Shown piece after piece: positions 4,111-16,623 of a DNA stretch of 23,128 bases. Position 1 is the stretch's first letter. Each line of letters begins with the position of its first letter. The notes under the pieces are model-generated. The model made no database searches and had not been told where the DNA came from. It saw only the letters and a list, made by a program, of their open reading frames with translations. The position numbers and the translations under genes were made by a program. Source of the stretch: a virus; IMG/VR virus record IMGVR_UViG_3300022602_000446, positions 1-23,128 of that record, one strand, 5' to 3'.

Positions 4111-4989
4111 TTAAACTCCTTCAAATTGTTGTGGCTCGATCTGAGCCATTACTGAATCAATCCATGCTTCGGCAGATTGCTTGTCGTTTACTTCAGGTTG
4201 AACAAATGCGTTCTCGCTGATCGGCAACTTCTTGACACCCTCTACCATCACGCTAGTAGAGTTACTACCTAAACCATCACGACATTCCATGCCACGCAAA
4301 TCAGATTCACAAATCAAACCACCATGAAACTGAACACGCTTGTAAGCAGGCATCGCAATCAAACTAGCCAAGGCTGAAGTATCAAGCGGTTGATCTTCGG
4401 CTTTGATCTCAACAAACTGGGCAAGTGATACACCGCTAGTGTTTTTGCCAATATCATGAGAACCAGCACCACCGTAGATTGCTACGCTATAACCAGCTTC
4501 AGATAATGCTTCGGCTAACTTGAGAACCGATGCACCACGATAGAAAAGCTTACTAGCATTTTCACCAGCATTGCATGACAAGTTACAAACTAAAGCAACA
4601 GAACGGATACCGCCTGCTCTGCTTTGTCGTTTAGTCTTTGTCCAAGCCTTGGATAGATCACCACGATATACCGCATGGATGTCTAACTCATCACCTTGAT
4701 CTGCACGGATACGCTTTTTGCGTAAACTGGTTGGCTGGATTTCTTTGGTAGCAATCTCACGCAACTTGTCAACACCTTCGCCCCAACCAAACTTGAGCCG
4801 TTCTTCGTACTGAGCCTGACTATCAGCACCAAACCAACGCTGTGAATCATCTTGATCATAATGATGCCGTTTAGTTACTGAATTAAATAAGTGCTCATTA
4901 TCAGAATTAGAGAACTTAGGTGATGTTGTCGGTTCAAAAAGTGAATCGTACAAAACTACTGTAGATTTTTTATCGGCAATTCTTAACAT
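4111..4989 (-). CDS. VWA-like (CobT-like) partner of the AAA+ ATPase
   Basis: 292 residues. The region 129-175 (IRSVALVCNLSCNAGENA, RGASVLKLAEALSEAGYSVA, IYGG) matches the first Rossmann half of a von Willebrand A domain as in CobT/ViaA-type proteins that pair with MoxR/CobS ATPases. The usual metal-binding DxSxS is replaced by N136-L-S138-C-N140, so metal binding may be altered or lost. The N-terminal 120 residues are charged with a basic stretch (SLRKKRIRAD). It lies directly downstream of the ATPase gene with a 21-nt gap and an AGGAGAG ribosome binding site, supporting a two-component complex. Related phage proteins are often labelled CobT, but cobalt chelation is not implied. Substrate unknown. 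Confidence 0.65.
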   Translation of the reverse strand: MLRIADKKSTVVLYDSLFEPTTSPKFSNSDNEHLFNSVTKRHHYDQDDSQRWFGADSQAQYEERLKFGWGEGVDKLREIATKEIQPTSLRKKRIRADQGDELDIHAVYRGDLSKAWTKTKRQSRAGGIRSVALVCNLSCNAGENASKLFYRGASVLKLAEALSEAGYSVAIYGGAGSHDIGKNTSGVSLAQFVEIKAEDQPLDTSALASLIAMPAYKRVQFHGGLICESDLRGMECRDGLGSNSTSVMVEGVKKLPISENAFVQPEVNDKQSAEAWIDSVMAQIEPQQFEGV

Positions 4990-5010: not shown

Positions 5011-6150
5011 TTAAGCAGAAACCTTGACACGCTCATCGTCTTTCCAGCCAATGAAATAAGTATCTTGAATATCCTGCAATGATTCGCCAGCTTGAATTAA
5101 CTTCGTTGCATCTAACATGAAACGAGTAGACATCACACGATTAAGTCTTGCTGATTCAATACGCTTACGAACATCTAAAGCCCAGCTAAATACTTCAGCA
5201 TCAACCGCTTGCTTTTCAAACTGAATGTCATAACCTAGTTTGACGATACCAGCACGAAAACGATCAAGGGTAGATTCATCTAAACGCTCACGACCTGAAT
5301 AAACCATGTTAGAACCTGTGCCGTATGTATTGGCAGCACCGATACAGATAAAGTCAGGATGACGCTTTACATAAGTAGCACCCTTACGCTGTGGAAGATT
5401 GAAACCGCCATTAGCAAGTGCTTGATTAACAAACAATAAAGTGTTCGGATCTGCCGCATCAATCTCGTCAAACAAGAACACACCACCAGTTTCGTACATC
5501 GTTACAAAATCAGATGGAACATATTCAAATGCACCGCCATCGCTTGGCAACAACCAACCTTGCAATGCACTCTCGCTCATTCCTGCTGTGCAAGATACTG
5601 AAGCAAACTGTCTACCCATCGCATCGGCTACTTGATGTGCTAGGTGTGTCTTACCGCATCCTGCTGGACCGACTAACAAAATATTGATACCGCATGAAGC
5701 TTTACGAAGGATTCCCTCAAACTCAGGGCGAACATAGCAATCCTTGATCGTATACTTGGAAAGATCAGGGCGATGAATAACAATCTCTCTCGGTGCTGCA
5801 TTGGATAACTCAGACTTGATAATCTTACGAACCGCATCTTCATCGACACCGCCCTTGCTATTTTTGAGAAGATCAAGCAAAGCCATCGCTTGCTCTAGGT
5901 CGCTGGACATCTTGGCTTGAGTTTGCTTTACCTCGGCAACATCATCGGCTTCCTCAAAGCCTAACTCGCCATCGGCAATCAAGGCATCAATAGCACCCTG
6001 AACAATCTCAGGGTAGAAATGCTCGGTAATGCTATCTAAGATTACCTTTTTGGTTTTCCTAGCGTAATCGCCTAGGGATACATCTAATTTCTTCGCTAAC
6101 AAGATCAAAGCTGATTTGTCTAAGTCGTTGATTGTGATTTGAATAGTCAT
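5011..6150 (-). CDS. MoxR/CobS-type AAA+ ATPase
   Basis: 379 residues. Residues 1-60 form a small helical N-terminal domain, followed by an acidic linker (61-110). The AAA+ core has Walker A GPAGCGKT (161-168), Walker B VFLFDEID (224-231), sensor-1 region GAANTYGTGS (271-280, Asn274), an arginine finger in DRFR (297-300) and a sensor-2-like STRFML (341-346). Length and motifs fit the CobS/MoxR branch, which remodels protein complexes with a VWA partner; that partner is the next gene. First gene of the leftward operon, with AGGAG 9 nt before the ATG. A long structured leader and an operator-flanked promoter lie upstream, so expression is probably early and repressible. Confidence 0.88.
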   Translation of the reverse strand: MTIQITINDLDKSALILLAKKLDVSLGDYARKTKKVILDSITEHFYPEIVQGAIDALIADGELGFEEADDVAEVKQTQAKMSSDLEQAMALLDLLKNSKGGVDEDAVRKIIKSELSNAAPREIVIHRPDLSKYTIKDCYVRPEFEGILRKASCGINILLVGPAGCGKTHLAHQVADAMGRQFASVSCTAGMSESALQGWLLPSDGGAFEYVPSDFVTMYETGGVFLFDEIDAADPNTLLFVNQALANGGFNLPQRKGATYVKRHPDFICIGAANTYGTGSNMVYSGRERLDESTLDRFRAGIVKLGYDIQFEKQAVDAEVFSWALDVRKRIESARLNRVMSTRFMLDATKLIQAGESLQDIQDTYFIGWKDDERVKVSA

Positions 6151-6779: not shown

Positions 6780-6834
6780 CACTATAAAGTTATTATTTAT
6801 TATCTGTTCTCGCTGTAGGTGAATATACCAATTC

Positions 6835-6862
6835 AATATTATTTTGATTATGAGATAATATT
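6835..6862 (+). promoter_or_regulatory. Inverted repeat just upstream of the PAPS-reductase-like gene
   Basis: AATATTAT (6835-6842) and ATAATATT (6855-6862) are perfect 8-bp complements with a 12-nt loop, ending 5 nt before the AAGGGAG ribosome binding site. It could modulate translation or bind a regulator; all A-T pairs, so a weak RNA hairpin. Confidence 0.3.
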
Positions 6863-6878
6863 AACTAAGGGAGATTGT

Positions 6879-7601
6879 ATGATTCATTTTGAAAGAGCAA
6901 AAAATTCTGAAGAAGTTATTCAGCAGATCAGAGGAGTAACCCCTGACACGCTACTAGCTTTTTCTTGCGGTAAGGATTCAATAGCATCATGGCTGGCAAT
7001 CAGAGATCACTTCGATACCATTGTTCCGTTCTATATGTATTTGATTCCCGGCAATTTATCATTCATTGAAGAATCGCTTCAATACTATGAAGATTTCTTT
7101 GATACCAAAATAGTAAGGATGCCACACGATTCCCTATACAGGATGCTCAATGGCATGACCTTCCAGCCACCTGAAAGACTTCGGTTTATGCAAAAGCTAG
7201 ACCTGCAAGAGCCAAACAGGGAAGACACGGCTTATGCCGTTGCTTATGACAATGATTTAGACCCTGATGTAGTCTTTACTGCAATCGGGGTTAGACAGAA
7301 CGATTCAATTCAACGCAGGTTAGCCATTCAAAAGCATGGGGCTATCAATACCACTCAAAGGCATTACTATCCCGTCTATGACTGGTCAAAGCAAAGGCTT
7401 ATTGATGAGATTAAAAAGGCAGGGGTAAAACTTCCAGTAGATTACAACCTATTCGGCAGAAGCTTTGACGGATTAGATTTAAGATTTATTTATCAGATTA
7501 AAAAGCATTACCCATTGGATTATCAAAAGATACTCGAATGGTTTCCATTAGTCGAAGTTGAAATATATAGATATGAATTTGCTATGAAAGGGCATACATA
7601 A
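6879..7601 (+). CDS. PAPS-reductase-like PP-loop protein
   Basis: 240 residues. The nucleotide-binding PP-loop is SCGKDS (29-34), with Cys in place of the usual Gly of SGGKDS. The downstream block GVRQNDSIQRR (137-147) and YYPVYDWS (163-170) fit the adenylyl-handling fold of the phosphoadenosine phosphosulfate reductase family, which includes DndC-like and many phage members. No C-terminal ECGLH-type reductase motif is visible, so sulfate reduction is doubtful and an adenylation or sulfur-transfer role is possible. The ATG at 6879 follows AAGGGAG; an upstream GTG at 6819 is in frame but lacks a ribosome binding site. It overlaps the next gene by one base (TAATG). Confidence 0.8.
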   Translation: MIHFERAKNSEEVIQQIRGVTPDTLLAFSCGKDSIASWLAIRDHFDTIVPFYMYLIPGNLSFIEESLQYYEDFFDTKIVRMPHDSLYRMLNGMTFQPPERLRFMQKLDLQEPNREDTAYAVAYDNDLDPDVVFTAIGVRQNDSIQRRLAIQKHGAINTTQRHYYPVYDWSKQRLIDEIKKAGVKLPVDYNLFGRSFDGLDLRFIYQIKKHYPLDYQKILEWFPLVEVEIYRYEFAMKGHT

Positions 7602-10079: not shown

Positions 10080-11495
10080 ATGTCTGATATAACAGTTAAT
10101 GGATCGCTAGTTCCGTCTTACCTTGTAAGCATTCTCAATTCTAATGTGCAACCGGGTTCGGATATTGGGTATGACCTTTGCAAAACCTTATGGCAATTCC
10201 ATCCATTGGCTGGAAAAATGGTCGAGAAGCCCGTCAGACTGGCATTGAGCAAACCTAGGGTTATCAATGTGGACATTCATCCGAAGGATATGCTCATCAA
10301 AGCATTCCAACGGGAATGGGATAGCTTGGGCGCAACAAACCATATTAGGGATGTGATGTATATCACTCGTGTATATGGCGCAGGGGCTATCGTTTTTGGT
10401 GCAGAAGGCATACCAACAGATCAACCGATTGACCCTTGGAAACTGCCAGACCTAAACCTATACTTTAATCAGTTAGATCCGCTTAACTTGGCTGGCTCGA
10501 TTGTTACCAATCAGAACCCTAATGCTCCCGATTTTCAAAAGCCATTGCCTTATGTAACGGCAGCAGGACAGGCTTATCATCCAAGCCGTAGTTGCGTGAT
10601 GTTCAATAACACACCAATCTACTTACGCTTTCAATCTTCATCTTTTGGCTTTACTGGTAGATCCATCTTCCAAAGATCGTTCTATCCAATGAAATCCTTT
10701 GTTCAATCCATGATTACGGATGACATGGTAACTGTAAAGGCTGGACTGTTAATTGCCAAAATGAAGCAATCGAACAGTATCGTCAATAAAGCCATGCAGA
10801 TTGCGGCTGGTGTTAAGAGAACCGCATTACAGTCTGGGGCTACCAATAATGTCCTATCTATTGATATTGAAGAAGAAATCTCGGCTATTGACCTGAATAA
10901 CACTTCAACGGCTATGACTACAGCCAGAGATAACATCATCGCCAATATCGCTGCGGCTTCAGATGTTCCAGCCATGTTGCTTAAAGATGAAGCATTGACT
11001 AGCGGATTCGGTGAAGGTACAGAAGATGCCAAAGCCATCATGCAATATATTGACGGCATTAGGGAAGATATGAGAACCCTATTTGAGTTTTTTGACAATA
11101 TCGTCATGCACAGGGCTTGGAATAAACAGTTTTATGAAGCCGTCAAAAATGCCTATCCTGATATGTACAGGGATAAGTCATACGAAGAAGCGTTTTATAT
11201 GTGGAAAGATGAATTCAAGCCTGAGTGGGAAAGCCTGCTCGATGAGCCTGATTCTGATAAAGCACAAGCTAATGATGTCCGATTAAAAGGATTAACTGAG
11301 ATTGCTAGAACCATTATGCCTAGCGTTGATCAGCAAAATAAAGCAAAGATTATCCAATGGATAGCAGATAATCTCAATGAAATGCCCGATGCGTTTGTAT
11401 CTGACCTAGAATTGGATTATGAAGAAATTGGGGCTTATGAACCGCCAGTAGTTCAACCTGAAGAAAATAAGATTCCAAAGCCAAGTGAATCATGA
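10080..11495 (+). CDS. Portal protein (DUF1073 type)
   Basis: 471 residues, typical for portal subunits. DUF1073-style landmarks are VYGAGAIVFG in the N-terminal third, a central long-helix region (TARDNIIANIAAASDVPAML), and SGFGEGTEDAKAIMQYIDGI, the variant of the conserved S-G-x-G-E/D block in these portals. The last 50 residues are acidic and proline-rich (PPVVQPEENKIPKPSES). It forms the dodecameric ring through which DNA enters, docking TerL. The position between TerL and the MuF-like gene confirms the call; its stop overlaps the next start as ATGA. Confidence 0.9.
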   Translation: MSDITVNGSLVPSYLVSILNSNVQPGSDIGYDLCKTLWQFHPLAGKMVEKPVRLALSKPRVINVDIHPKDMLIKAFQREWDSLGATNHIRDVMYITRVYGAGAIVFGAEGIPTDQPIDPWKLPDLNLYFNQLDPLNLAGSIVTNQNPNAPDFQKPLPYVTAAGQAYHPSRSCVMFNNTPIYLRFQSSSFGFTGRSIFQRSFYPMKSFVQSMITDDMVTVKAGLLIAKMKQSNSIVNKAMQIAAGVKRTALQSGATNNVLSIDIEEEISAIDLNNTSTAMTTARDNIIANIAAASDVPAMLLKDEALTSGFGEGTEDAKAIMQYIDGIREDMRTLFEFFDNIVMHRAWNKQFYEAVKNAYPDMYRDKSYEEAFYMWKDEFKPEWESLLDEPDSDKAQANDVRLKGLTEIARTIMPSVDQQNKAKIIQWIADNLNEMPDAFVSDLELDYEEIGAYEPPVVQPEENKIPKPSES

Positions 11496-12289
11496 CCTTT
11501 TATGAGGTAATTAACTCGGCTATTGCCGACTTTCTCAAACATGGGTTTGATGATGTCAACCGCCTAGATAAATGGCTTTTGCAAATCAAACTGTCCGCTC
11601 ATAATCATTTAATGAGTGAAAGAGAAATGCAGGCTAAGATGGAAAAATCTTTGCATAGTGCGTTTAATAGACTTGTTACCAAAAATGGATTAGTTAGCAA
11701 GGATGTCAGCAAGTACGATATTACTAAGCTATCAGGAAAGCTCAGGGCAGAACTAGACAGACGGATTATTGCTTCAGCTAATCTGATCAAATACGACAGA
11801 GAGCGTTCTATAAGCATGGTACTCCGCAGATTTGAAGGATGGGCAACCTCTATTCCTGCTGGCGGAACAAAGATTAAGCCAACCCCAAAAGAAAAAGCCA
11901 ACATTAAAAAAGGCATGAGTGATGTCGGATTTTGGCAAAGAAGAATTATTATTGATCAGACCCATAAGTTAATCGCCAACATTAACGATATTGTGGCTGT
12001 AGATAATGGAGCTATTGCGGCTCGGTGGCATAGTCATTGGAAACAGATAAACTATGATTACCGAAAAGATCATAAAGAGCGTGATAGTAAGATTTACGCC
12101 ATTAGAGATTCATGGGCTGTTAAAGAAGGTTACATAAATCCGATTAACGGATATACTGATGACATTACTTCTCCCGGTGAGGAAGTATTCTGTCGGTGCA
12201 ATTATGTTTATTTGTATAACTTGCGTCAGGTTAAAGATTTATTAACCAAAAAGGGTTTAATGGCGTTACAATCACCAAAAAATACTTAA
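11492..12289 (+). CDS. MuF/SPP1 gp7-like minor head (head morphogenesis) protein
   Basis: 265 residues. The C-terminal third has the family signature: DHKERDSKIYAIRDSW (193-208) and SPGEEVFCRC (227-236), where the paired cysteines end the MuF fold. The N-terminal half is helical and basic. Known relatives are minor capsid proteins bound to the portal and sometimes injected with DNA. ATGA coupling with the portal gene suggests stoichiometric assembly at the portal vertex. No toxin domain is attached, as MuF proteins sometimes carry. Confidence 0.85.
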   Translation: MTFYEVINSAIADFLKHGFDDVNRLDKWLLQIKLSAHNHLMSEREMQAKMEKSLHSAFNRLVTKNGLVSKDVSKYDITKLSGKLRAELDRRIIASANLIKYDRERSISMVLRRFEGWATSIPAGGTKIKPTPKEKANIKKGMSDVGFWQRRIIIDQTHKLIANINDIVAVDNGAIAARWHSHWKQINYDYRKDHKERDSKIYAIRDSWAVKEGYINPINGYTDDITSPGEEVFCRCNYVYLYNLRQVKDLLTKKGLMALQSPKNT

Positions 12290-12299
12290 GGTATTCCCT

Positions 12300-14093
12300 A
12301 TGCCATTTGAATCGGAAGCACAAAGACGAGCCATGTATGCCGCTGCGGCAGGTAAGTCCAATATTGGCATTCCCGAAAAAGTGGCTAAGAAATTCATTAA
12401 ACATTCCACAGATGACTGTGACGAAAACATTAAATGGCTTAATGAATTGATCCAAAATGAAATGTTGGCTAAACAAATCAAGGGTGACGAAATCCCTGAA
12501 GAACCAACACTCATGTCCACGCCTGACAACATCACAGTTCATAAGGGCGAACTGTCCCATGAACTGAAAAAGCTTCAAATCAAAGATATTGGTGAAAAGT
12601 TGCGTGAAGCGGCTAAACATATCGCAGAAATGAAGAATGATGAAGATGATGATCCTGTTCCTAGGTTTGGTACAGACGATTCTGAAGCTTGGCAGACCAA
12701 AGAAGGCAAAAATAAAAATGGTGGCTTGAATGAAAAAGGTCGTGAATCCTATAACAAGGAACATGGCGGTCATTTAAAAGCCCCACAGCCTGAAGGCGGT
12801 GCTAGGAAGAAGTCTTTTTGCGCCAGAATGAAGGGCATGAAGGCAAAACTGACTTCAGAAAAGACAGCCCACGATCCTAATTCCAGAATCAATAAGTCAT
12901 TGCGTAAATGGAAATGCGATGATGAAGCCCAAAGCTATTTGGAAGAAATGTGTGATGCTCTGATTGAGTACGCAGAAGCTATTCCTGATGATGATCCTTG
13001 CTGGTCAGGCTACGAACAGTACGGAATGAAGGAAAAAGATGGCAAAGAAGTGCCTAATTGCGTTCCTAAGTCCGATTCTGAATCTATTGAGCACAACATT
13101 GCGTTAGTTCCTGAGCCACCTAAAGATGTAAAGCCTGAAGATAATATGGGCGGAGCACAAGGCAGAGCTGCAGGAATTATGTTTATTACTGCTGATGAAG
13201 AAGTATTGATGATCCGTAGGGGTATGGGTGGCGGTGATTATCCCGGTACTTGGTGTATTCCCGGTGGACATCAAAAGGGTAATGAAACTCTTGAAGAAAC
13301 AGCCCGTAGAGAAACAGCAGAAGAAACTGGAATTGACTACAAGGGCAATTTAGAGCTTTTGTATGATGATGGACAGTTTGCTTACTATGTAGCTCGCAAT
13401 TTTGCCAAAGAGCCAATTACTTTAAATTATGAATCTTCAGGTTCTGATTGGTGTAGCCCTACTACTCCGCCATTACCATTACATCCCGGTCTTGAATCTG
13501 CGTTCAAAATTGCAATGGCTAAGACCGAAACCGATGTAGCTAAACTAATTTCTGAAGGACTTTTAGCTAGTCCGCAAATGTATGCCAATATTGCTTTATT
13601 AGCAATTCGTATCACAGGTACAGGTTTAGCTTTTAGATCATCTATTGGTGAGCATGTATGGCGTGATCCATCACTTTATCTCAATGATGAGTTTTTACAG
13701 CGTTGCAATGGTTTGATGGTCATCATGGATCATCCTGAAACGCAAGTATTGACAACCGAAGAATTTAAGAATCGTGCAGTTGGTTCAATCATGCTCCCCT
13801 ATATCAAAGGTGATGAAGTTTGGGGTATTGCTAAGATTTATGATCAATCTGCAATTGACGAAATATTGGAAGGAGAAGTATCGACTTCCCCAGCAGTTGT
13901 ATTTGACAATACTGCTGGTAACATTACACTTACAACCGAGAATGGGCAGCCACTCTTGATTGAGGGTGTGCCATTCCTACTGGATCACATAGCAATCGTT
14001 ACAAAAGCTAGAGGTTCAAAAGGAGTATGGGACAAAGGTGGCGATGCTGCTGGAGTTTTATTAACTAACAATGAGGTGTCTGAAAATGACTGA
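12300..14093 (+). CDS. Multi-domain capsid-maturation protein: DUF6321 + Nudix + DUF2213
   Basis: 597 residues, much longer than a plain DUF2213 protein. Modules: a SEAQRRAMYAAA motif (5-16); a helical linker (40-120); a DUF6321-like block (128-206: EAWQTKEGKNKNGGLNEKGR ... KKSFCARMKG ... SLRKWKC); a CWSGYEQYGMKEKDGKEVPN/CVPK motif (234-257); a Nudix domain (about 288-375) with an intact box, G323-x5-E329-x7-R337-E338-x2-E341-E342-x-G344-I345; and a DUF2213 domain (about 438-580: HVWRDPSLYL, MDHPE, GSIMLPYIKGDEVWGIAKIY, VSTSPAV). DUF2213 sits where the prohead protease/scaffold lies in this phage type; H478 and S528/S530 are candidate catalytic residues by analogy. The reading frame is uninterrupted, so the fusion is real. 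The Nudix substrate is unknown. Confidence 0.85.
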   Translation: MPFESEAQRRAMYAAAAGKSNIGIPEKVAKKFIKHSTDDCDENIKWLNELIQNEMLAKQIKGDEIPEEPTLMSTPDNITVHKGELSHELKKLQIKDIGEKLREAAKHIAEMKNDEDDDPVPRFGTDDSEAWQTKEGKNKNGGLNEKGRESYNKEHGGHLKAPQPEGGARKKSFCARMKGMKAKLTSEKTAHDPNSRINKSLRKWKCDDEAQSYLEEMCDALIEYAEAIPDDDPCWSGYEQYGMKEKDGKEVPNCVPKSDSESIEHNIALVPEPPKDVKPEDNMGGAQGRAAGIMFITADEEVLMIRRGMGGGDYPGTWCIPGGHQKGNETLEETARRETAEETGIDYKGNLELLYDDGQFAYYVARNFAKEPITLNYESSGSDWCSPTTPPLPLHPGLESAFKIAMAKTETDVAKLISEGLLASPQMYANIALLAIRITGTGLAFRSSIGEHVWRDPSLYLNDEFLQRCNGLMVIMDHPETQVLTTEEFKNRAVGSIMLPYIKGDEVWGIAKIYDQSAIDEILEGEVSTSPAVVFDNTAGNITLTTENGQPLLIEGVPFLLDHIAIVTKARGSKGVWDKGGDAAGVLLTNNEVSEND

Positions 14094-14913
14094 AAATAAG
14101 ATTGAGCCAAAGGCAGATGCCCAAGGCGATAAATTGGATGCCATTATGTCTTTATTGGGTAAAACAATTACCCGTTTAGATGAAATGGAAAAAAACCTTC
14201 CTGCGCCACCTTTGGTGACTGCTGCTGATAAAAAAGCTAAAGCCAAAAAAGATGATGACATGGAAGCTTGTGATGACGATGATGAAGAAGAAGAAGCCAA
14301 AAAGGATGATGACGATATGTCTGAAGCCAAGGCTAAGAAATTCATGATGCGTAAAGCTAAGAAGGATGCTGAAGGATCTGATCCTAAAGAACACGGTCCT
14401 GCTGGTGAAATCAAGCCTGATGATGAAGGCAAAATGGAAATGCCTGCTGGTCACATGGACTTCAAAAAAGATGATGATGACGAAGAAGAAGCTAAAAAAG
14501 CTGATGACGAAGAAGCCGCATACGCTGATTGTCAAGCTAAAGCTGATTCTGTTTATTCAGCATTTGGCAAATCTGCATCACGCCCATTACAAGGCGAAGG
14601 CTTAATGGCTTACCGCAAGCGTATGTTGCGTGGCTTACAAGCACATAGCGATGAAATGAAAAACATTGACATTAACAAAATTGCTGATGAAGCAATGCTC
14701 GCTGTAGTTGAAAAGCGTGTTTATGCCGATGCTCTTGCAGCTTCTCGTGGAGTTGGAGCAATTGCTAAAGGTCAATTGATCCCTCTTTATAAGAAAGACC
14801 AAGCTGGTCGTACCATCACTGAGTATCGTGGTGATATGGAAGCGTGGTTGGGCGACTTCAAACTCCCATCGTCACGGGTAGTGAAGTTTAATACTGAAAA
14901 TTTTAAGCGATAA
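14086..14913 (+). CDS. Acidic scaffold-like protein
   Basis: 275 residues from the ATG at 14086, with GAGGTG 8 nt upstream; an in-frame ATG at 14071 lies within the upstream gene and has a poorer site. After a short coiled segment (AIMSLLGKTITRLDEMEKNL) the middle (about 48-150) is low-complexity Asp/Glu/Lys with runs such as DDDDEEEEAKK. The C-terminal third is folded and helical (LMAYRKRMLRGLQAHSDEMK, IADEAMLAVVEKRVYADALA). Acidic, helical proteins between a maturation protease and the capsid protein are usually scaffolds; this is inferred from composition and order. It overlaps the DUF2213 gene by 8 nt. Confidence 0.65.
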   Translation: MTENKIEPKADAQGDKLDAIMSLLGKTITRLDEMEKNLPAPPLVTAADKKAKAKKDDDMEACDDDDEEEEAKKDDDDMSEAKAKKFMMRKAKKDAEGSDPKEHGPAGEIKPDDEGKMEMPAGHMDFKKDDDDEEEAKKADDEEAAYADCQAKADSVYSAFGKSASRPLQGEGLMAYRKRMLRGLQAHSDEMKNIDINKIADEAMLAVVEKRVYADALAASRGVGAIAKGQLIPLYKKDQAGRTITEYRGDMEAWLGDFKLPSSRVVKFNTENFKR

Positions 14914-15597: not shown

Positions 15598-16623
15598 ATG
15601 TCTGGTTTCGCACCCTCGTATGTAACCGTAAACCCACACTTCATGATGCCTGAGTTGATTATGCAGTACAGCTTGGCTTCAGGTGCGTTTACAACTCTGG
15701 CAACAGAGAACCCAATGCCACGCCTTGGTGAAGCTGACCTTTATGTTTACGCTAAAAAGGTTCAGTTAACAACTCAAGTGCAGGCTAGTCAAGCTACTTC
15801 TAACCAATTGCCTTCAGCATCGGTTATTCCTAGCATGATTAGTACCGCTACTTATCGTTTGCAAACTCGTGCTCAATATGACAACTTTGATGAAGCCGCT
15901 ACTGGTGCTTGGGGCTATGCGCTCCCAGAAGCACTTCGTTTAGCTGCCCGTCAAGGTATTGCACAGCAGTTGCGTAATGCACTTCTCTATGGCTACAACC
16001 CAGCCAATGGTGAAGGCTTGCTCAATACTTCTGGCGCAACTCGTGTTAACTTGGGTTCAGATAGCAACGGCAACACTGGCTATAGCACATGGGATTCTGG
16101 TCAATTGGCTCAGTTCTTGTTGAACATGATTGGTAACTTGAAAACTACCACTCTCCAAATTGGTCAGCCATTGCGTTTAGTATTCTTAGCTCCACAGCGT
16201 TTCATTCAACAAATCTCTTACGGTGGTATCGTGTCCTTGACACAGTTCCAGCGTATTGGTGCTGGTGTTGAAACAGCCGCTGGACTTGTAGAAACTGTTG
16301 CTCAGTGGGCAGGTGGTGACGATGTAAGCTTTGCGGCTGATGATACTTTGATTGGTCAAGGTTACAACGGTACTGATGCAATTATTTTGATTGCTCCAGA
16401 ACTGAAGATTCCTAAAGCTAACTCTCGTATCAACACCAACATTTTTGCTGAGTTGACACCAAATACAACTGCAACTTCGTTGATGCTTTGCGATGTGGCT
16501 GCTCCTACAGAGATTCCTACTCCATTGCCTGATGGTGGTATTACTACCCTCTACACAATGCGTAGCACCTCTGGTTGGGGTATCCGCCCAGAAGCATTAA
16601 CAATTTTGTCAGCTTCTTATTAA
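15598..16623 (+). CDS. Major capsid protein (DUF2184-like)
   Basis: 341 residues. N-terminal region with YSLASGAFTTLATENPMPRL, then a helix-rich section (YALPEALRLAARQGIAQQLR), FLAPQRFIQQISYG, and a C-terminal ELKIPKANSRINTNIFAELT and TLYTMRSTSGWGIRPEALTI block. These match the style of DUF2184 major capsid proteins, an HK97-fold group usually found with DUF1073 portals and DUF2213 proteins, all three of which are present here in order. Starts with GAAAGGAA 6-7 nt upstream. A strong terminator follows 17 nt after the stop, consistent with setting high expression of this unit. Confidence 0.87.
   Translation: MSGFAPSYVTVNPHFMMPELIMQYSLASGAFTTLATENPMPRLGEADLYVYAKKVQLTTQVQASQATSNQLPSASVIPSMISTATYRLQTRAQYDNFDEAATGAWGYALPEALRLAARQGIAQQLRNALLYGYNPANGEGLLNTSGATRVNLGSDSNGNTGYSTWDSGQLAQFLLNMIGNLKTTTLQIGQPLRLVFLAPQRFIQQISYGGIVSLTQFQRIGAGVETAAGLVETVAQWAGGDDVSFAADDTLIGQGYNGTDAIILIAPELKIPKANSRINTNIFAELTPNTTATSLMLCDVAAPTEIPTPLPDGGITTLYTMRSTSGWGIRPEALTILSASY

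Follow-up and report, generated by a model that had tools for sequence, protein, structure and literature searches.

Prohead maturation proteases are sequestered within proheads and commonly degrade themselves and the scaffold, and in lambda (C/Nu3) and the herpesviruses (UL26/UL26.5) the scaffold starts within the protease gene or at its end. To our knowledge, neither these proteins nor T4 gp21 carry a Nudix domain. Fusions of Nudix and head proteins have already been reported, together with the idea of their packaging: in the accessible text of PMC9503650, T4-like nudE proteins are described as fused to MuF, to portal, and to a capsid-processing serine peptidase, and such fusions are suggested to be possibly packaged and injected. 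Furthermore, NUDIX is noted together with DUF2213 in the available part of PMC8770471, and the corresponding parts of PMC5512222 (polyvalent proteins) and PMC7824862 supply a wider frame for multi-domain phage proteins. As far as the text of PMC5512222 seen goes, polyvalent proteins likewise join disparate domains and a peptidase in one phage polypeptide, but their peptidases and domains are others, whereas the peptidase of the protein described here is the prohead protease itself.

Isolates of the Nudix-protease kind are described in the accessible portions of PMC9224151 and PMC12629751, the latter reporting RothD, which is able to lysogenize. Virion proteomics of a Nudix-protease protein was not found in the available text of the literature searched, these two papers included; in those portions, the term "mass spectrometry" is absent from both and "nudix" from PMC12629751. 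In Pantoea phage PdC23 (gene 4), Klebsiella phage Chronis (gp4), and Yersinia phage 29.18, Nudix, DUF2213, and scaffold are united in one phrog_6216-like gene, whose place within the head cluster is that of the gene studied here, and RothD is alike by match alone (residues 291-586). Over 291-586, this group, including RothD, is 39-43% identical to our protein; the PdC23, Chronis, and 29.18 genes differ in having no DUF6321 or CWxGYE match and in carrying the scaffold in frame. The DUF2213 of Actinobacillus phage pPE4 and Escherichia Rac-SA53 is about 59-60% identical to ours, and in pPE4 the scaffold is attached to DUF2213 and that protein has no Nudix. Some public names at these loci (L082, L084, L086) are doubtful: for Yersinia phages the Nudix-protease is annotated as "glycosyl transferase", for PdC23 the gene that follows it as "endosialidase", and for pPE4 the DUF2213-scaffold protein as "TolA protein".

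Here, we describe such a protein in an IMG/VR virus fragment of 23,128 bases (the window, i.e., the whole stretch of DNA analyzed). It resembles the fusions of PMC9503650 in having a Nudix on a capsid protease and in the same proposed logic of packaging followed by injection; DUF6321, CWxGYE, and the scaffold start were not found in the accessible text of that paper. Our analysis adds a predicted gp21-like protease fold, conservation of the active site, a single-Nudix pattern, a removable slot with its modules, and a scaffold start, none of which was found in the available text of the literature searched.

Head Gene Cluster and Open Reading Frame

The genes are ordered as portal, MuF-like, Nudix-protease, scaffold-like, a 219-aa protein (phrog_6268), and capsid, with the large terminase further upstream. 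The main head genes are as follows:

10080..11495, plus strand: portal protein of DUF1073 type, context (Pfam Phage_portal_3, phrog_146)
11492..12289, plus strand: MuF-like head morphogenesis protein, context (phrog_324, E 8.8e-20; against Pfam Phage_Mu_F E 0.068 only, below cut-off)
12300..14093, plus strand: Nudix/prohead-protease polyprotein, 597 aa (open frame, Pfam and PHROG matches, relatives)
14086..14913, plus strand: scaffold-like gene, a separate ORF (phrog_6216 positions 337-545; role suggested by position and composition)
15598..16623, plus strand: major capsid protein, context (phrog_264 major head protein, E 9.2e-11)

Within the polyprotein, the following modules are distinguished:

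12300..12407, plus strand: N-terminal motif MPFxSExQRRAMYAAAxGxSNIGIPxxVAKKFIxHS, aa 1-36 (phrog_16759, E 2.8e-5)
12705..12911, plus strand: DUF6321, a basic Cys-containing module, aa 136-204 (Pfam E 5.8e-21)
12999..13070, plus strand: CWxGYE...PNCVPK motif, aa 234-257 (position checked; phrog_9737, 36547, 4359)
13149..13499, plus strand: Nudix domain, aa ~284-400, Pfam core 288-372 (Pfam, profile, model, fold, conservation)
13266..13334, plus strand: Nudix box, aa 323-345, G323-x5-E329-x7-R337E338-x2-E341E342-x-G344 (residues checked)
13521..14081, plus strand: DUF2213 prohead protease domain, aa ~408-594, with candidate catalytic residues H478, S528/S530, and D562/H563

An earlier note, prepared from the letters alone, had proposed that one uninterrupted frame joins a DUF6321-like block, the CWxGYE...PNCVPK motif, a Nudix domain, and DUF2213. 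Translation of 12300-14093 indeed yields 597 aa without a stop, the motif is borne out at aa 234-257, and Pfam places DUF6321 (136-204, E 5.8e-21), NUDIX (288-372, E 5.5e-15), and DUF2213 (452-572, E 6.2e-8) in this single frame, each exceeding its cut-off (NUDIX, 56 bits against 21.1); the Nudix match expected by the note is thus present at 288-372. A whole-protein scan of viral contigs gave 271 relatives; in the best 80 of 271, Nudix and DUF2213 share one ORF at 80/80 loci, a count that leans toward fusion since the query was the whole protein. The seams are therefore sound, as the note had held, and the fusion recurs in the homologues collected. An assembly artefact or chance frame was ruled out by the open frame, the Pfam matches, and the fusion in relatives. 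The family phrog_6216 (545 aa, "unknown function") spans residues 290-592 and then runs on into the next ORF; the polyprotein continues functionally into the gene at 14086-14913.

The modules upstream of the Nudix are distributed variably. DUF6321 has no match in 21/80 of the best 80 of 271 relatives (among them L057, which ends at the contig end), its order relative to CWxGYE is reversed in some relatives, and it is found C-terminally in a cyanophage S-P4 structural protein and as a small ORF one gene past the capsid gene in HTVC115P; a literature search on DUF6321 returned no paper. The phrog_16759 motif recurs in L180 (E 2.3e-10), and an AQRR-like N-terminal motif stands before DUF2213 without Nudix in L180 and, by eye, in L181, while phage QDWS has the order N-terminal motif, Nudix, protease.

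Several other genes of the window were also recorded. On the minus strand, an AAA_5 (dynein-related) ATPase (5011-6150) adjoins a DUF7192 protein (4111-4989; Pfam E 4.6e-21 and 1.1e-27, respectively), possibly forming an ATPase-partner pair, and an N6/N4 DNA methylase (1-582) runs off the record end. On the plus strand, the protein at 6819-7601 has an SCGKDS-type loop, which we take to resemble that of PAPS reductase/ATP-pyrophosphatases; it has no Pfam match at 1e-3 and no PADLOC match.

Structure and Active Site of the Nudix Domain

Structure prediction, which the earlier note had recommended, yielded an AF2 model of the Nudix domain with pLDDT 80-92 in blocks 291-400; its top solved Nudix match is 3grn (Z 16.2, 2.1 A over 123 residues), and a profile search against solved structures retrieved plant NUDX1 (E about 1e-13). 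The Nudix box, called perfect in the note, fits at residues 323-345 except for a Thr at the U position of REU. Conservation was assessed in 77 distinct Nudix sequences, derived from 124 ORFs with both domains (twice-fetched contigs included). R337, E338, E341, E378, W384, and H395 are kept in 77/77, and E342 in 76/77, the exception being a Lys in L191; E378 is presumably the catalytic base, by analogy with MutT. The strict box pattern fits 63/77 sequences, the first box Glu is displaced by a one-residue insertion in 11/77, and L177, L179, and L191 deviate close to the end of the box; a PROSITE-like Nudix pattern matches just 31/77. Accordingly, of the G, E, and REUxEE residues whose loss in homologues the note had regarded as telling, RE and EE are retained (with the one exception), and the first box Glu is absent in 11/77. 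As a separate observation, L191 (an Erwinia genome contig; Lys at E342) and L195 (Kluyvera; gene in two frames) are possible decaying prophages.

In the window clade, median dN/dS, calculated only from pairs of moderate synonymous divergence, is 0.166 (N-terminal arm), 0.057 (DUF6321), 0.195 (CWxGYE), 0.158 (Nudix), 0.208 (linker), 0.086 (protease), and 0.205 (scaffold). Judged from these comparisons, the Nudix domain is under purifying selection with its predicted metal site intact, and for this reason the hydrolase is probably active. Matches by profile and structure spread over MutT, NudB, NudI, RppH, Ap4A hydrolases, Dcp2, and plant NUDX1, and the best NCBIfam matches are housekeeping enzymes of the MutT, NudB, NudI, and RppH types, all far under cut-offs. 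Assignment of a single substrate was dropped, the matches being scattered over many Nudix types, and RNA-cap hydrolysis may be one among many candidate activities left by the profile and fold comparisons. The PADLOC candidate defense family PDC-S07 weakly matches residues 296-348 (E 3.8e-6), likely owing to the shared Nudix only.

The Prohead Protease and the Start of the Scaffold

The DUF2213 domain was modeled from a 47-row alignment with pLDDT 89.9, and T4 gp21 is its best structural match (Z 10.2, rmsd 2.8 over 131 residues), followed by herpesvirus proteases from Z 7.2 down to 5, the lower of these scores overlapping those of unrelated MCE-domain proteins (Z 5-6). A Foldseek search of the model against the PDB was weak (best E 2.9e-3, TM 0.36), matches among BFVD viral models include DUF2213 and annotated prohead proteases, and when DUF2213 was searched by sequence against solved structures, the single match was at chance level. 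In a model of the whole protein (38 rows), DUF2213 is poor, with every ten-residue block from 411 on below 65. All 47 aligned sequences share H478, S528, S530, D562, and H563. The catalytic order of assemblins is His-Ser-His, and H478, S528/S530, and D562/H563 are candidates for a catalytic triad, assigned by residue order rather than superposition. The model thus suggests a protease fold in common with T4 gp21 and herpesvirus UL26 assemblin, and the gene product would be a prohead maturation protease of this kind. The claim of the earlier note that a Nudix is built into a head-maturation protein is upheld by the gp21-like DUF2213 model, by the location of the gene between the MuF-like and the scaffold and capsid genes, and by retention of the metal-binding residues.

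The scaffold-like ORF spans 14071-14913, and its likely start is the ATG at 14086, at the border with the protease:

14073..14088, plus strand: ribosome-binding-like GAGGTG (14073-14078) and scaffold ATG (14086), overlapping the region of the polyprotein stop (14091-14093)

The placement of this ATG is like that of the scaffold starts in lambda C/Nu3 and UL26/UL26.5. In the best 80 of 271 relatives, scaffold and protease are in the same frame in 43/80 and split in 31/80, no scaffold being seen in 6/80, and the GAGGT...ATG at the border is conserved in both fused and split forms. The Glu codon of the EVS segment is GAG at all 21 distinct junctions found (15 fused, 6 split), whereas GAG makes up 18.6% of Glu codons overall in those junction ORFs; the codon of E592 is GAG in 54/54 distinct protease sequences. 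When six further invariant Glu columns are compared, the GAG share is 11-26% in five and 51/54 (94%) in one (E547), and because of this E547 column codon bias alone is not decisive for the scaffold start. In 9/13 ORFs taken from other clades, a start is preceded by a ribosome-site-like match, with none in L086, L120, L139, and L173. Since the GAG codon and start site are conserved at the border, we infer that fused and split forms alike initiate the scaffold at a start of its own; fused lineages would additionally make a protease-scaffold fusion.

Relatives With and Without Nudix

A second scan of viral contigs was performed with DUF2213, the first query row being the Nudix-free pPE4. In the best 80 among the matches listed, Nudix is in the ORF in 20 and absent in 60, several of the 20 being contigs already in the whole-protein scan; shares within such best-80 sets are not frequencies in nature. 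In bacterial genome contigs, Nudix precedes DUF2213 at 19/29 loci and is absent at 10/29, the frame-broken L195 being taken as Nudix-bearing, and among five fetched isolates PdC23, Chronis, YenM_29.18, and QDWS have the Nudix and pPE4 does not. In 66/72 Nudix-free ORFs, the DUF2213 match starts at residues 1-4. By Nudix profile, no Nudix was found elsewhere in the fetched stretches of Nudix-free loci, save the other half of L195, or anywhere in the pPE4 record, the only one of these searched whole.

A DUF2213 tree was built from 64 of 115 distinct sequences after 92% clustering (40 with Nudix, 24 without), L001, L175, L192, L195, and short matches having been left out beforehand. Presence of Nudix requires four changes on this tree, by loss or several gains; the main Nudix-free clade (20 rows) adjoins the window clade (23 rows, all with Nudix) with weak support (88/60), and L181, L183, L184, and L194 are on long branches. 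Judging from these comparisons, the Nudix is an accessory to the protease and scaffold, since a related clade has both and no Nudix in that protein. It sits in what appears as a removable slot, given that Nudix-free DUF2213 proteins start at the N-terminus, that the adjoining clade is without Nudix, and that L180 and L181 have the motif before DUF2213 without Nudix. With its related protease and scaffold, that clade has no Nudix in this protein, which makes a general requirement of Nudix for packaging or assembly unlikely.

Nudix at Other Head Positions

A Pfam NUDIX search of 21 phage records gave exactly one match in 20/21 and zero in pPE4, the single Nudix being on DUF2213 in 18, on the portal in one (Bcep781), and free in the head cluster in one (Bm1); the records were chosen for carrying such genes and some are fragments, so the informative part is the absence of a second Nudix. 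In Bcep781, the Nudix is the C-terminal portion of the portal (residues 572-678) and the protease has no Nudix match, and in Bcep1, Bcep43, and BcepNY3 the matches are in genes named portal or NUDIX hydrolase; a literature search on Bcep781 and Nudix found no paper. In Bm1, a free Nudix gene overlaps the end of the MuF-like gene, and the phrog_3778 protease begins downstream of the Nudix portion of this family. The proteases of Bm1 and Bcep781 have no match to the DUF2213 profile at E up to 1, and the Nudix thus recurs beside only distantly related protease families, the kinship of these proteases to that of the window being given by position and PHROG or record names only.

When four such Nudix domains served as queries, the best 80 ORFs among the matches listed comprised 24 with DUF2213, 15 other long ORFs, and 41 short ones. 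Ten of the 15 were tested: in seven, the Nudix precedes a head maturation protease (phrog_3778, 2229, 1961/530), in one it is fused to a portal, and in two no further known domain is seen. Two large ORFs, L224 3787-6579 (931 aa) and L265 5995-8628 (878 aa), carry a Nudix close to the C-terminus or at the N-terminus, with nothing else recognized by PHROG at 1e-5, and are possible further Nudix-bearing virion proteins. The Nudix profile, built without the Bcep781 and Bm1 sequences, scores the Bcep781 portal Nudix at 92.5 bits, Bm1 at 80.4, and T4 NudE at 45.7, whereas the fusions in PMC9503650 bear a T4-like nudE label. The best BLAST identity of T4 NudE to the Nudix is 32-33% over 99-102 residues, with a long branch and weak tree support, and by eye it is without the terminal W...PLHP segment. 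The PLHP ending was rejected as a mark of head Nudix domains as it is not specific, being present in 40/41 short stand-alone Nudix ORFs.

A Proposed Packaged Nudix Enzyme and Its Alternatives

The explanation that we favor, and hold about as probable as its negation, is that a Nudix enzyme is loaded into the prohead via the protease, freed, and perhaps ejected with the DNA. The prohead protease would bear an accessory N-terminal arm, the main part of which is the Nudix hydrolase, and would enter the prohead together with the scaffold encoded just downstream (many relatives would in addition supply the two as one fused protein), thereby carrying the arm inside. During maturation, the protease would cut the linkers and release the Nudix within the head, and the enzyme would be ejected with the DNA to hydrolyze an NDP-X type molecule early in infection; a defense signal, an NAD/ADP-ribose derivative, a capped RNA, or similar are candidate targets. 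The Bcep781 portal fusion is consistent with packaging because portal C-ends commonly face the head interior. On the other side, the arm may be destroyed during maturation, since prohead proteases commonly degrade themselves and the scaffold; no cleavage site was identified in the window protein. The 11/77 Nudix domains without the first box Glu, the three others that deviate, and the Bm1 Nudix, which is not covalently linked to a head protein, also weigh against packaging.

A more extended reading, which we regard as tentative and somewhat unlikely, would have the protease's N-terminal arm serve as a modular loading dock, on which the Nudix and short motifs (AQRRxMYAAA, DUF6321, CWxGYE) are shuffled. 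The only Nudix of the phage would have moved among protease, portal, and free gene; this cargo would ride in, be freed, and enter the next host for anti-defense or takeover, the virion-borne Nudix acting ahead of any phage gene expression.

Alternatively, the Nudix might act late in the infected cell, before or during assembly, in nucleotide clean-up or in alarmone or capped-RNA hydrolysis, the fusion merely tying its expression to the head operon. Being the sole Nudix match in 20/21 records, it could serve such a general need, and the free head-cluster gene of Bm1 and the housekeeping types among the best NCBIfam matches, far under cut-offs as they are, agree with this; however, co-expression by itself hardly accounts for fusion at more than one position of the head (protease N-end, portal C-end), sequestration of the protease within proheads is to be expected, and we consider the alternative unlikely. 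It is less probable still that the Nudix binds a ligand to regulate the protease or head, e.g., as a nucleotide sensor timing maturation, with catalysis secondary: a short conserved segment joins it directly to the protease and it recurs beside proteases of several PHROG families, but related proteases exist without it, in Bcep781 it is on the portal and not on the protease gene, and the catalytic Glu residues show little or no variation. That the arm is a purely structural, N-terminal protease-loading domain with its enzymatic role gone, as the missing first box Glu in 11/77 and the Lys at E342 in prophage L191 might suggest, is very improbable, retention of the metal site (R337, E338, E341, and E378 in 77/77) being unexpected for a structural role.

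Perspectives

For the packaged Nudix enzyme that we favor, usable material exists in PdC23-type isolates and in Bcep781, which has the Nudix at the other head position, and the Nudix-free relatives are natural controls. The conserved scaffold start at the border offers a tidy example of a single locus yielding protease as well as scaffold, whether the two are fused or split. If the Nudix is delivered by the virion, it would offer a handle on how tailed phages disarm nucleotide-based defenses before their own protein synthesis.
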